A DNA stretch of 64,000 nucleotides from positions 1 to 64,000 of the forward strand of contig JAIWWG010000124.1 in NCBI GenBank assembly GCA_025435555.1. Direction: 5' to 3'. Below are positions 1 to 42,076 of this stretch, one piece after another; the stretch's first letter is position 1; each line of letters begins with the position of its first letter. Source of the stretch: Chytriomyces cf. hyalinus JEL632. Taxonomy: Eukaryota > Chytridiomycota > Chytridiomycetes > Chytridiales > Chytriomycetaceae. Position numbers and translations under genes: made by a program. The notes below the pieces were generated by a model. That model ran no database searches and had not been told where the DNA came from. It saw only the letters and a program-made list of their open reading frames with translations.

Positions 1-1089
1 CGAAACTGATGCACCCATTTCGTCGAAATTTATAGTTGCGCCTTTCATACTTAGTGCTGAGATTGACAGGAGGTTCACAGAGAGACCTGGTACGTAAAGA
101 ACTCCGGTTATTGTCACTGTGCCGTTCTCACCCTTCAATTTAACCGATCCAATCCCCTTGATCTGGAACTGGTCACCGCTTGCTACCGTTACTTTGCCAA
201 GGTCGTCCTGGCTTGTCAAGTCCTTGATAATTTCTTTGTCACCTGTCATGTGGTTACTGGCTCCGGAGTCCAGAATCCAGTCACCATCTCCTGACTTTAT
301 CTTTGCTGCGGTAAGCACGAAGTTTCTTGATTGATTTGCTTGATGAGCTTTCTTCTCATCATCTTTGCTTTTGATCTGTCTTGGTCCTTGACCTTCTTTG
401 TCGCCGCCCTTGGCCCAACACTGTGCTTTCTTGTGCCCTGGCTTGCCGCAATTGTTGCATTCACCTTTAAATTTCATGTTGCTCTGTTTTGCCTGCATGG
501 CTATGCCTCTGCTGGATCCAATTTCCTTGCTTTCGGCTCGCATGTACTCGTACTCTGAGATAATTTTTCCTTTAAAATCCTTGTAACTAGTCATCAGGCT
601 AGTCTGTGCTCTGATTGCTGGGAGGACATTCTCCCATGACTTAGGTAAGCTCCTCATGACCTGGTTGATCATGTCTGGGTCACTGACAAGTTGTGTTCCA
701 AGTACTCGTCGGTACTCTTCCAACTTTGCTAAGTGGTTGATTACATCACCACCTTCTTTCATTTTTAGACCTCTGAACATTGTCTGGGTTCGGAATAGCA
801 GGTTCGTTTCATCTGATGCTGTGATATTCTTGACTGCAGCCATCATTTCTTTTGCAGTAGTGGCTTCCCTAAGGTGCTCATAGAACTTAGGTAGGACTCT
901 CTCCACTATCTTGCCCATGGCTTTCTCGTCCATAGCTAACCATTCTTTTAGTTCTTCAGCTTTGGACTCTTCTGGTTTGGCCGTCTTTAGCGTGCTTCCA
1001 AGTTTCTTGGCGTTAAGATGGTGGCGCATGGCAAATTCCCATTCCTGATAGTTTTCACCGTTGTAGAGTAGAGTCTCGTGTTTGCTCAT
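1..1089 (-). CDS. Ty1/copia Gag-Pol polyprotein, N-terminal 363 codons (runs off the window)
   Basis: The minus strand is open without a stop from the ATG at 1089 to the window edge, so only the 5' part is visible. The start reads MSKHETLLYNGENYQEW, typical of copia Gag (UBN2/DUF4219 type). A CCHC zinc knuckle (CNNCGKPGHKKAQC) lies near residues 205-220. About 55 residues later comes the aspartic-protease motif WILDSGASNHMTGD, followed by the copia signature VLYVPGLSVNLLS. Gag and protease are therefore in one frame, as in Ty1/copia elements. Integrase and reverse transcriptase must lie outside the window. All 363 codons are intact, which suggests a recent or active copy. No intron is seen. 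Family assignment is firm; activity is inferred. Confidence 0.93.
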   Translation of the reverse strand, partial: MSKHETLLYNGENYQEWEFAMRHHLNAKKLGSTLKTAKPEESKAEELKEWLAMDEKAMGKIVERVLPKFYEHLREATTAKEMMAAVKNITASDETNLLFRTQTMFRGLKMKEGGDVINHLAKLEEYRRVLGTQLVSDPDMINQVMRSLPKSWENVLPAIRAQTSLMTSYKDFKGKIISEYEYMRAESKEIGSSRGIAMQAKQSNMKFKGECNNCGKPGHKKAQCWAKGGDKEGQGPRQIKSKDDEKKAHQANQSRNFVLTAAKIKSGDGDWILDSGASNHMTGDKEIIKDLTSQDDLGKVTVASGDQFQIKGIGSVKLKGENGTVTITGVLYVPGLSVNLLSISALSMKGATINFDEMGASVS

Positions 1090-1136
1090 GGTAAGATGTC
1101 GGTTTTTTAATTATAGCAATGGTGCTGATAACGTAT

Positions 1137-37059: not shown

Positions 37060-38704
37060 TCAACATTCTAGCGGTGACTTTACGACAGCGTCACAATACT
37101 CATCCTGCTCAGCCATGACTTCGTCTTCATTTGCAGCACCGTGCTCCGAAACCATATGCGAACGTAGCGCAGATGGACGTCGAAACAGTCGATTGCACTG
37201 CTGGCATGGCATTTCGTCGATCGAGCTGCAATAATTGGCGCGATGGCTTTGCAGCATCTGATTCAAAACAAAAAAAAAAAAACCGGTTTAGAAAAAACGT
37301 TTCATTTTCTTTTTCAAATCTTTGCTGTGGTTTTTTTTTTTTTCGCGCACACCTTTCGAGTTTTAAATTTCTTGTCGCATCCGTCACATTCGAAATTGTA
37401 GTCTTTGGCGTGTATATATGAATGCTTGGTCAAATCCTGTTGAATTTTGGATGCAGTTTTTTCGATGGATGAGTAAAATAAGTTTCCTTGATGAACAAAA
37501 AAAACAAAAAAAAAACTGGTACTCAACTGCCCGTGTCTTGAACTTTTTTTCGCACGCATCGCATTCATATTCGCGCACATTGGTATGATCCATAATGTGG
37601 ATTTTCAAGTCCTTTTCAAAAAAAAAAAAAAAAAAAAAAAACGCCACTTTGAGAAAGCTGACAAATTGCACATGGAAAACCGCAAATCAGAAAAAACACA
37701 AAACTCACAGTAGCTCGTTTATAAGCCGCAGGACAATGTTCGCACACATACGGCTTCACATCTGAATGAACCAGGCTGTGACTCCGTAGTTCCTGAAATA
37801 GACCAAACGTTTGAAATGATGAGCATTTCTAATTTTTGTGTGGCACGGGGAACAGAGAAAAAAAATAATCATGGCAATTTTTTTGCATGACTTTTCTTTG
37901 TTCAAACCATTGCTCGCTTGAAGGCCTTTCCGCAAGTCAGACATTCGAAAGGTTTCGCTTGTTGGTGTGTGACGTCGTGTTGTTTGAGTTCCTGTTTTTG
38001 AAGAAAGACACTTTTTTTTTGAGTGAACGCCAGAAGATAAAATAAAAATAGATATAAAAAAAAGCAACCATTTTCCGTTTGAAGCATTTCCCACACGTTT
38101 GACATTTCTAGATTGATGGAGGATTTGCGTACGCAGTCGTGAAGGGGAGGATGGGGGTTAAGCGAAAATTTCCAGGAAAAGGAGGGGAGATGGCGCTTAC
38201 AAAGGGTCGTTCATCCGAATGTTTTGGTTCGTGGTGCACAAGCTCCTGATAAACCCACATCAAAACATTGAAGCGGCATGAGCAAAACATATATGCATGG
38301 TCAATTTAAAAAAAAAAAACCCCATGCGGGGACACGACACGACACGAAAACCACACACAACGCACCTTCTTTGTTTTAAACAGCATAGAACAGACGAGAC
38401 ATTCAAACAACATCCCCCTCTTCCTCTGAAGCATGGCATCTCCCGTAATAACGACGGGTGTCTGTTGTCTAGGAGGAGAGGGTGGTGATGACGCCGGCGC
38501 AGCGGCCCTAGCAATGGGAGGCAGAGTCATACACGTGGTGGGCGGCACACCACCGCCGTCGCTGGAGACACTGAGCGCATCGCTGACGGTCAAGGTAGAT
38601 GGCATGTCATGGTCGAGTCCAGCTGCGTCGCTCACGGGAGTCTCGCCGAGGAAGAGGGACGGCTCGTCGAATACGAAATCGTCGAGAAGCAGTCGCAGAT
38701 CCAT
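37060..38704 (-). CDS. Seven-finger C2H2 protein with one finger-length unit per exon
   Basis: Exons 38366-38704, 38201-38245, 38069-38107, 37908-37991, 37709-37792, 37527-37610, 37353-37436 and 37060-37257 give 318 residues. Exon 1 carries an acidic N-terminus (MDLRLLLDDFVFDEPSLF) and the first Cys pair (FECLVCSMLF). Each internal exon is exactly 84 nt, phase 0, starting with E/D-L-x-x-H and ending K-x-F-K-x-x, i.e. the second half of one finger plus the first half of the next. One 84-nt unit is itself split 45+39 by a further intron. Fingers have the 28-residue C2H2 period; finger six ends H-x4-C, the last is CQQCNRLFRRPSALRSH. Predicted DNA-binding transcription factor. Long poly-T tracts precede several acceptors. 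Confidence 0.88.
37618..37641. repeat. 24-nt poly-A (poly-T in transcript)
   Basis: Homopolymer inside an intron of the multi-exon zinc-finger gene, placed where the polypyrimidine tract before the 37610 acceptor would be. Confidence 0.95.
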
Positions 38705-39529: not shown

Positions 39530-42076
39530 TTATTTTGTGCAAATGCGATTCTTCAAATGCCGCATCAATGCATCTCGCCTTGTAAACGATGTAGAGCACA
39601 GTTCGCATGAAAACAAATTCTGTCGAGACATGCGCGTCACATTCTCCTCGTCTCCAATCCCACCACCACCATTCCCGCCTTCATTCGGATGAAACACTCG
39701 GTTATGCGTCGCTTCATGACGCCTGCATTCTTGTGCCCTCAAAAACGCTTTCCCGCATTCTTTGCATTCGTGTCGTTTACCCATTCCGTGAATGTGTGAA
39801 TGCGCCCGCAAACTGTTTCGCGAAGAAAATGGACCTTGGCCGCAGAAACAAACCAAATCTTCACCACCATTGCCACCACCACCACCACTACCACCACCAC
39901 CACCACCATTATTACATTCCCCCGTAGACCAACTACGCGCCTTTTTCGACACTTCTTCCCCACCTGCTGGTGGCGACGCATAGCAAAGACCACCCCCACC
40001 ACTTCCCTCCGTTGCCGAAACGAGCAAAAGATCCATCGAATCCCCATTCGTTTCCTCCGACTGGAACGGACTCACAAGCGACGATGCCGTTTTAGAAGAC
40101 TTGCGTGTCGACACAAGTTCCAGTTCAGCTGGACCCACCGCGAAATTGTGCACCACGTTTTTCCCACGTACTTGAGATTTACTACTACTCGTGCGTACTG
40201 GTTTTAAACGGGGCCCCGGTTTGCTGATGCGTAGGCTAGTAGCAGTAGTAGTGTCGTTGCTGCTGCTTTTTGGAGACAATTTGCGAGTCATGGAGTCGAC
40301 GCTTCCCGAGCTCAAAATGGGCGTTGTTGAAGACCCGCCGCTTACACCTTTGGATGACCATGATGCAGTTGAAATGGATGATAATGTGGATGCATTCGAC
40401 AGTTTTCTTTTGAAAGAAGCACCGTGACTTTCATTTAAAGCTTCGGGGCGCGTCTCCAGCCTTAGGGGCAGCACCGGTGGTGATCGAGGCTGGAGAGTAG
40501 TAGTAGGAGGCTGAATGAGGAAATTTAAAGAGTAACCATCGTCGCAATTTAGACCACGCACAGGCGATTGCACCGGTTCCTTCAGTTTCCCGTTTGATGG
40601 GCCATTTGATGCAGGCTTCAAGGTTTGATCCATAAACGTCGAGAACCAGGATTGGCAGTCCTCAGAATTGTCGGCTGCAAATGTGCGCATCCCATTTCCG
40701 CCACCTCCTCCTCTGATATCCCATCCTGGTTCGGTTTCATTCGTGGAGCAACTTTCAGGCCCAGAGTGGAGCGACTGGAGATCGTTCTGACAATGCTGAG
40801 AATCTTGAATCGGTCCATTGCTGCGGTTCAATTGGTCCAAAAGTTTATCATGATTCCACCCATTCACCATCTGATCATGTTGAAAGTTCCAAAAAGTCTT
40901 GTCGAAACTGGCTTGACCGCCACTGTTGTTCGTCAACACGTCCTTCATTTGACTACTACTGCTACTGCTACTGCTGGCGCCGCCTGAACCGGCATTAATA
41001 TCCGCAAAAAAATCTGACTGCGTGTCAATCCAGTCGACAACACCGCCGCCTGAAGATTCAGAGTTTGACGCGCTTCGAGAAAACCCGTTTGTGATTGGCG
41101 GAAACGAATGGCATGCATTTTTTGTTGTTGATGATGGGTCGCATTTTTCTTGATGCTCCTTTTGTGCAAGATTTCCGAAAAATGCGCTCTCGCCTGGAAA
41201 CGGTGGTTGTTGCTGCTGGTTGGAGCCCCAAGTCGACGAAGGTAAGTTTGCAGTTATGGAATCGCTACTTGAAGCGTTGAGGAGTGCATTCAAATGATCC
41301 GCGTTTCCAGCAACAGCAGCAGTCGGTGTGATTGGGGACCTTGTGTAGATTGAAGAAATATGAACAGCTTCGGATTCGGTGGACAAACTGACGCCGGTAA
41401 GGTGCGCAGTCGGAGGAGCTGACATGTTATCGAACGGGTCGAAAGAGTCTTTGATGAGGCCGGTTATGGGAGACATGGTATTACAGTTGTTGTTGTTGTT
41501 GTTGTTGTTGTTGTGGTTGAGCTTGATTGAGCTAAACATTTGCAGACTCCAAGGGTACGGCTCAGAGTAAAATGAATTTGAAGCAGGTTGCTGAAGAGTG
41601 CGTGTTGGTGGAGGAGATTCGTAGGTGCATGCGGTATTGTGGAGCAGTGGATGTTGTTGTCCAACAATACTGGCATTTTGCTTTACAACTGCACAAGAAG
41701 AGTCTGTGAACAAGTCCATTCGATTTTAAAAGACGATGCGGTCGGAACTCGCCGAAAAACATATAGTTTTTTAAAAAAAAAAAAGGGATGAGTCACCATG
41801 ATGAGGCATTTTCACATGGGATACAACATCTGGCTGCTGCGCATCATCGCATGCATCCATCGCAGACATGTCAAAGAACGGGTCAAGTGGGCTAAACAGG
41901 TCAAACGAGATAAGCGGGTCCAGCGCATTCACACTAGACAGCGTCCACGCATTCGCTGCGAGTTCGTGCGACGGGTGCGATGGCGGCTGCTGTGCCTCCG
42001 GGCCGCTTCGACGAGAGACCCCGATCCGCCGTGTCTTTGCCATGTCGTCGTGCTTACCCATGCATACGTCGGCCAT
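39530..42076 (-). CDS. C2H2 zinc-finger transcription factor, 817 aa
   Basis: Two exons (41797-42076, 39530-41703; 93-nt intron) join through PHHD|SSCAVVK. The N-terminal ~600 residues are Asn/Ser/Gln-rich with short homopolymers (a run of Asn encoded near 41490-41510, Ser at 40950-40975) and acidic patches that could activate transcription. The C-terminus has three fingers: a CFCGQ...HSHIH finger, CKECGKAFLRAQECRRHEATH and, after a Gly-rich loop, CELCSTSFTRRDALMRHLKNRIC. The last ends H-x5-C, as in some fungal factors. The Gly-rich loops and the terminal CTK are visible. Target genes cannot be inferred. Confidence 0.85.

Follow-up and report, generated by a model that had tools for sequence, protein, structure and literature searches.

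The window, by which we mean the whole 64,000-nucleotide stretch of DNA that was analysed from Chytriomyces cf. hyalinus JEL632, contained a C2H2 zinc-finger gene on the minus strand at positions 38704-37060. The gene model consisted of eight exons (Table 1) and predicted a protein of 318 amino acids with seven fingers. All seven introns were bounded by GT and AG, measured 77-120 nt and lay in phase 0. The splice sites were predicted from the continuity of the fingers together with the GT..AG borders, and the chosen start was the first ATG of its frame. This start agreed with that of the closest named protein, HDU83_008742 (P0003) of Entophlyctis luteolus, a member of the same family (Chytriomycetaceae), which had a similar N-terminus (MDLxxLL) and shared 61% identity with the window protein over 144 aa. 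The coordinates of the four internal 84-nt exons (exons 4-7) and of a fifth 84-nt unit split 45+39 (exons 2 and 3), as described in an earlier note on this DNA, were exact, and each of these five units held one finger period with the same phase at both ends. The model is a prediction from sequence and the donors of introns 3, 4 and 6 were unusual, so misread splice sites or decay of the gene could have made it partly wrong. We consider this highly improbable, since the predicted splicing yielded one continuous frame with seven finger matches and the resulting protein showed the identity to the E. luteolus protein given above.

Table 1. Exons and introns of the zinc-finger gene, with positions in the window
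Feature	Length (nt)	Position	Strand	Description
Exon 1	339	38366..38704	-	N-terminal region and finger 1, first half; start resembles the N-terminus of E. luteolus P0003
Intron 1	120	38246..38365	-	phase 0; finger 1, after F+4
Exon 2	45	38201..38245	-	
Intron 2	93	38108..38200	-	phase 0; off-register (..RPF/KC..), cuts the first 84-nt unit 45+39
Exon 3	39	38069..38107	-	
Intron 3	77	37992..38068	-	phase 0; finger 2, after F+4
Exon 4	84	37908..37991	-	likeness of predicted E. luteolus P0003 begins exactly at exon start (ELKQH)
Intron 4	115	37793..37907	-	phase 0; finger 3, after F+4; three paralogs probably share it
Exon 5	84	37709..37792	-	in L011, L012 and L051, unit following the first F+4 intron matches it best
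Intron 5	97	37612..37708	-	phase 0; finger 4, after F+4
Exon 6	84	37528..37611	-	
Intron 6	91	37437..37527	-	phase 0; finger 5, after F+4
Exon 7	84	37353..37436	-	
Intron 7	95	37258..37352	-	phase 0; finger 6, after F+4
Exon 8	198	37060..37257	-	second half of finger 6, intron-free finger 7, acidic tail; length includes the stop

The window protein matched the Pfam family zf-C2H2 (PF00096) with an E-value of 7.2e-29 and 99 bits, the cut-off being 25.2. Seven fingers of the C-x2-4-C-x12-H-x3-5-H form were found, the sixth of which ended in Cys and was thus of the C2HC type. Judging from the finger type, the product should be a sequence-specific DNA-binding C2H2 protein and is probably a transcription factor. 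Identity with TFIIIA was rejected because the window protein has seven fingers and TFIIIA nine; among solved structures, the TFIIIA chains (63 and 60 bits) also matched more weakly than ZNF568 (208) or CTCF (116). The neighbouring gene on the upstream side (39533-41725), also on the minus strand, was an uninterrupted frame of 731 residues whose C-terminal end carried C2H2 fingers and which had long Ser/Gly/Asn stretches of low complexity. Judging from its translation, a 370-residue frame at the edge of the window (1-1110, minus) may encode a retrotransposon Gag-type protein. Neither the Rfam scan nor the tRNA scan gave a match in the window.

Register of the introns within the fingers

Introns 1, 3, 4, 5, 6 and 7 were located 12 nt, or four codons, past the Phe/Tyr codon of a finger (F-x-x-x-x/x-L-x-x-H, with the slash marking the intron; F+4 in the following). 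This intron was present in fingers 1-6 and absent from finger 7. If each intron fell independently of the others, with an equal chance for every one of the 84 positions of the finger period, the probability of finding at least six of the seven in one register would be about 1.7e-9. The earlier note had assigned all introns to one finger position, between F-K-x-x and L-x-x-H. A single shared position was indeed found for six introns, but intron 2 lay elsewhere, and the spacing is more exactly four residues from the Phe to the intron and one residue from the intron to the Leu.

In the usual helix numbering, the shared position falls between residues +2 and +3 of the recognition helix, so that the contact residues -1 and +2 of a finger are encoded in the exon before it and +3 and +6 in the exon after it. 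Each predicted exon of this kind therefore fuses two half-helices: the rear half, with +3 and +6, belongs to one finger and the front half, with -1 and +2, to the following finger. The regularity of the layout and the two half-helices joined in each exon are what is unusual about the gene. Fingers in separate exons occur in the WT1 and animal TFIIIA genes. The earlier note's view that a single exon usually encodes a C2H2 array was too broad, as the source makes this statement for KRAB genes, unlike other families (PMC5509000).

The F+4 intron in related genes

The window and 49 loci (L011-L059) chosen by similarity to the window protein were scanned with relaxed settings for fingers interrupted by GT..AG. 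The loci included near-copies and made up part of the C2H2 genes of the genome, for which a Pfam search scored 150 of 397 candidates and listed at least 46 matches, and a protein search listed 126. The scan covered fixed finger patterns interrupted by GT..AG stretches of 50-200 nt. Stricter scans missed sites: stronger splice motifs dropped intron 3 of the window gene, a C or T required before the acceptor AG dropped one intron of L051, and a narrower set of Phe positions dropped the other. The relaxed scan gave 159 unsplit finger matches and 62 split-finger places, whose offset k ranged from -12 to 18 and equalled 12 at ten places. An F+4 phase-0 intron was found at these ten places in four genes (the window gene with six, L051 with two, and L011 and L012 with one apiece) and in none of the other 46 loci scanned, where split fingers were interrupted at other positions. 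From the rows inspected, many of the split-finger places at other positions look like chance matches. The commonest of these positions (19 places) was in phase 1 and immediately preceded the Phe; most of its occurrences belonged to a distinct tandem C2H2 family. At L019, L020, L024, L025 and L031, on contigs C198, C13 and C2, numerous C2H2 genes stood in tandem clusters; the clustered genes look like near-copies of one another and have this phase-1 intron ahead of the finger Phe in common.

In the three paralogs, unlike in the window gene, the F+4 intron was restricted to one (L011), one (L012) and two (L051) fingers, and the other fingers lay mostly together in one exon. The two split fingers of L051 were separated by one intron-free finger. 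L011 is a relative of C. hyalinus HDU80_011448 (P0206), and L012 corresponds to BJ741DRAFT_587040 (P0132) of Chytriomyces cf. hyalinus JEL632. The predicted protein P0132 agreed with the F+4 splice of L012 and contained the entire spliced L012 protein plus 26 residues at the N-terminus. The F+4 splice of L011 likewise agreed with the predicted P0206, whose model reads through the next intron. In our reading, the number of fingers was seven in the window gene, six in L011 (one of them degenerate) and four in L012. A decayed copy of L012 that kept the F+4 donor region was seen in L017 (2371-2820, plus strand). L060 (its first 150 bases, minus strand) proved to be a copy of L012 truncated where contig C152 ends.

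The 28-residue unit that follows the first F+4 intron was most similar to exon 5 of the window gene in all three paralogs (19/28 identical residues in L011, 14/28 in L012 and 15/28 in L051). Summed over the three units, the BLOSUM62 score of exon 5 was 281 and that of the runner-up 188; a lead as large was obtained in 0.13%, and a maximum as high in 1.8%, of column-wise random triples. Because all three units pointed to exon 5, the first F+4 intron of the paralogs was probably inherited and most likely corresponds to intron 4 of the window gene. Exon 5 may owe part of its pull to lying near the consensus of the family, since two paralog units with no F+4 intron before them (L11_u34, 92; L12_u23, 74) likewise matched it best among the window units. 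The tree of the units was weakly supported (31-98) and did not set the window units apart from those of the paralogs. The register of L011 against the window gene was ambiguous, with a mean of 82.7 at offset 2 and 71.75 at offset 0, the latter being the one chosen by MAFFT. A chimeric first finger of L011, composed of half of finger 1 and half of finger 3, was rejected because its first half fitted window fingers 3 (52) and 1 (50) alike.

Intron 2 of the window gene lies at a different position from the other six, and no intron was found there in L011, L012 or L051. It is therefore plausible, as proposed earlier, that the 45+39 split reflects a separate, later intron. The GC content of intron 2 was 0.52, compared with 0.26-0.42 in the other six introns.

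Origin and age of the finger array

HDU83_008742 is a probable ortholog of the window gene. Its predicted protein contained fingers 3, 4 and 6 in full together with the second halves of fingers 2 and 5; finger 1, the first halves of fingers 2 and 5, and finger 7 were missing from it, either from the gene or through errors of the prediction. The onset of its likeness at the border of exon 4 and the garbled first half of finger 5 suggest that the E. luteolus gene has introns at the same borders. The E. luteolus units matching exons 4, 5 and 7 were identical to them at 20, 23 and 19 of 28 residues, whereas any two units within the window gene shared at most 15 of 28. Since identity between the species exceeded that within the gene, the units of exons 4, 5 and 7 had diverged before the split from E. 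luteolus. The third codon positions of the window units were only 28% identical and thus saturated, and on both grounds the finger array is judged to be old.

The units of the window gene were compared with one another by BLOSUM score. Neighbouring units scored 89, 71, 52 and 75, and distant ones 60, 48, 48, 53, 48 and 41. One neighbouring pair (52) was below two distant pairs (60 and 53), but of the 120 possible orders of the five units only two, the real order and its mirror image, reached the neighbour score. Neighbours were thus on the whole more alike, which fits tandem duplication. The introns, which the earlier note had proposed to compare with each other, showed no convincing likeness. 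Among 21 intron pairs, seven gave an uncorrected P of 0.1 or less, five of them on T-runs and two (1-4 and 2-5) on short gapped matches; intron similarity was not accepted as evidence of common origin.

On this evidence, it is reasonably likely that the array grew by tandem duplication of one phase-0 intron plus an 84-nt finger unit, and that the paralogs lost introns. The duplicated unit would have comprised one such intron and one finger period, each new finger bringing with it a copy of the same intron. The growth would have taken place before the split from E. luteolus and probably before the four-gene family was formed; most intron copies would later have been lost from the paralogs, and the first unit of the window gene would later have gained intron 2. 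Tandem duplication of an exon with its intron, as the earlier note had suggested, is thereby the best-supported origin, owing to the likeness of neighbours and to one position probably inherited in the four-gene family; its weaker points are that the introns are no longer convincingly alike and that intron loss in the paralogs must also be assumed. The latter arises because the fingers matching window fingers 4 and 5 were intron-free in some paralogs, which means that introns were either lost from these paralogs or gained by the window gene.

Gains are what would be expected if the fingers had come first and introns had been inserted into them independently, the repeated coding sequence offering a common target. 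The second L011 finger resembled window finger 4 (CP-x-AYKR-x-T) and only the window finger carried the intron, which together with the dissimilar intron sequences agrees with such insertions. The exon bases GA followed five of the six F+4 sites, and introns 3 and 4 shared AATG/GAA, which a common insertion target could explain. The usual context of intron insertion is AG, however, and AG preceded only two of the six sites (introns 1 and 7). As the F+4 position was also absent from the rest of the scan, six independent insertions are the less likely, and at least one copy looks inherited; we regard parallel gain as unlikely. Mobile introns of the introner type were sought by searching the genome with introns 1 and 4, and each matched only itself, simple repeats being skipped. 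An intron could also have been copied from one finger to its neighbours by repeat exchange, the number of fingers remaining the same. Gene conversion of this kind would equally give the same position in every finger and similar neighbouring units, but the number of fingers differs within the family. Recent conversion should moreover have left similar introns, which were not seen, although age could have erased their likeness. This origin is considered rather unlikely, and growth by duplication of a finger with its intron remains the preferred reading.

Exon skipping and the number of fingers

The claim that the number of fingers could change without a frameshift was borne out by computation: skipping of exon 4, 5, 6 or 7, or of exons 2 and 3 together, kept the frame and removed one finger. 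Skipping of exon 2 or exon 3 alone also kept the frame and altered the spacing of the fingers. Retention of any one of the seven introns resulted in shorter proteins of 132-272 residues with 0-5 fingers. Loss or skipping of an exon would thus shorten the array by a single finger, in frame, and generate a hybrid helix.

The exons of IKZF1 (Ikaros) are not known to form a uniform 84-nt series. Like the window gene, IKZF1 has its fingers distributed over several exons, and it is an established case in which the choice of exons sets the number of fingers. Its isoforms lacking exon 4 and/or exon 6 are described as having three or two core fingers instead of four (PMC12896614). IKZF1 is a vertebrate gene in which skipping is demonstrated, whereas skipping in the window gene is an in-frame prediction only. 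The finger number of plant TFIIIA (9ZF/7ZF) is also changed by splicing, which involves retention of a 5S-rRNA-mimic intron instead of one-finger exons (PMC6164485). Searches of open-licence literature found no chytrid gene of the one-finger-per-exon kind. The window gene neatly exemplifies a type of gene structure that is already known and does not amount to a new mechanism.

The in-frame loss of single fingers, the example of IKZF1 and several donors that deviate from the usual consensus (GTTTGA, GTTGCT and GTTGAG) would agree with a layout kept because skipping lets the cell vary its finger number. Against this, short introns such as those of the window gene (77-120 nt) fit intron definition, under which retention is dominant, and retention of a single intron here would shorten the protein as computed above. 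In the figures given for coding regions of Schizophyllum commune, exon skipping accounted for 1% of splicing events and retention for 43-44% (PMC5034255). Because of these proportions, skipping is unlikely as the purpose of the window gene, and we hold it to be very unlikely that the layout has been kept for it. A broader proposal is that gain, loss or skipping of exons bounded by F+4 introns recombines half recognition helices, so that DNA-binding specificity would change together with the number of fingers in a natural exon-shuffling system; this is distinctly doubtful.

The intron positions of the window gene seem to record the growth of a repeat protein in an early-branching fungal lineage. 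With its intermediate states, the four-gene family makes it possible to test directly if introns accompany the finger units that are duplicated or are acquired at corresponding sites. Evidence of exon loss or skipping would show that finger arrays are edited through the exchange of half helices.
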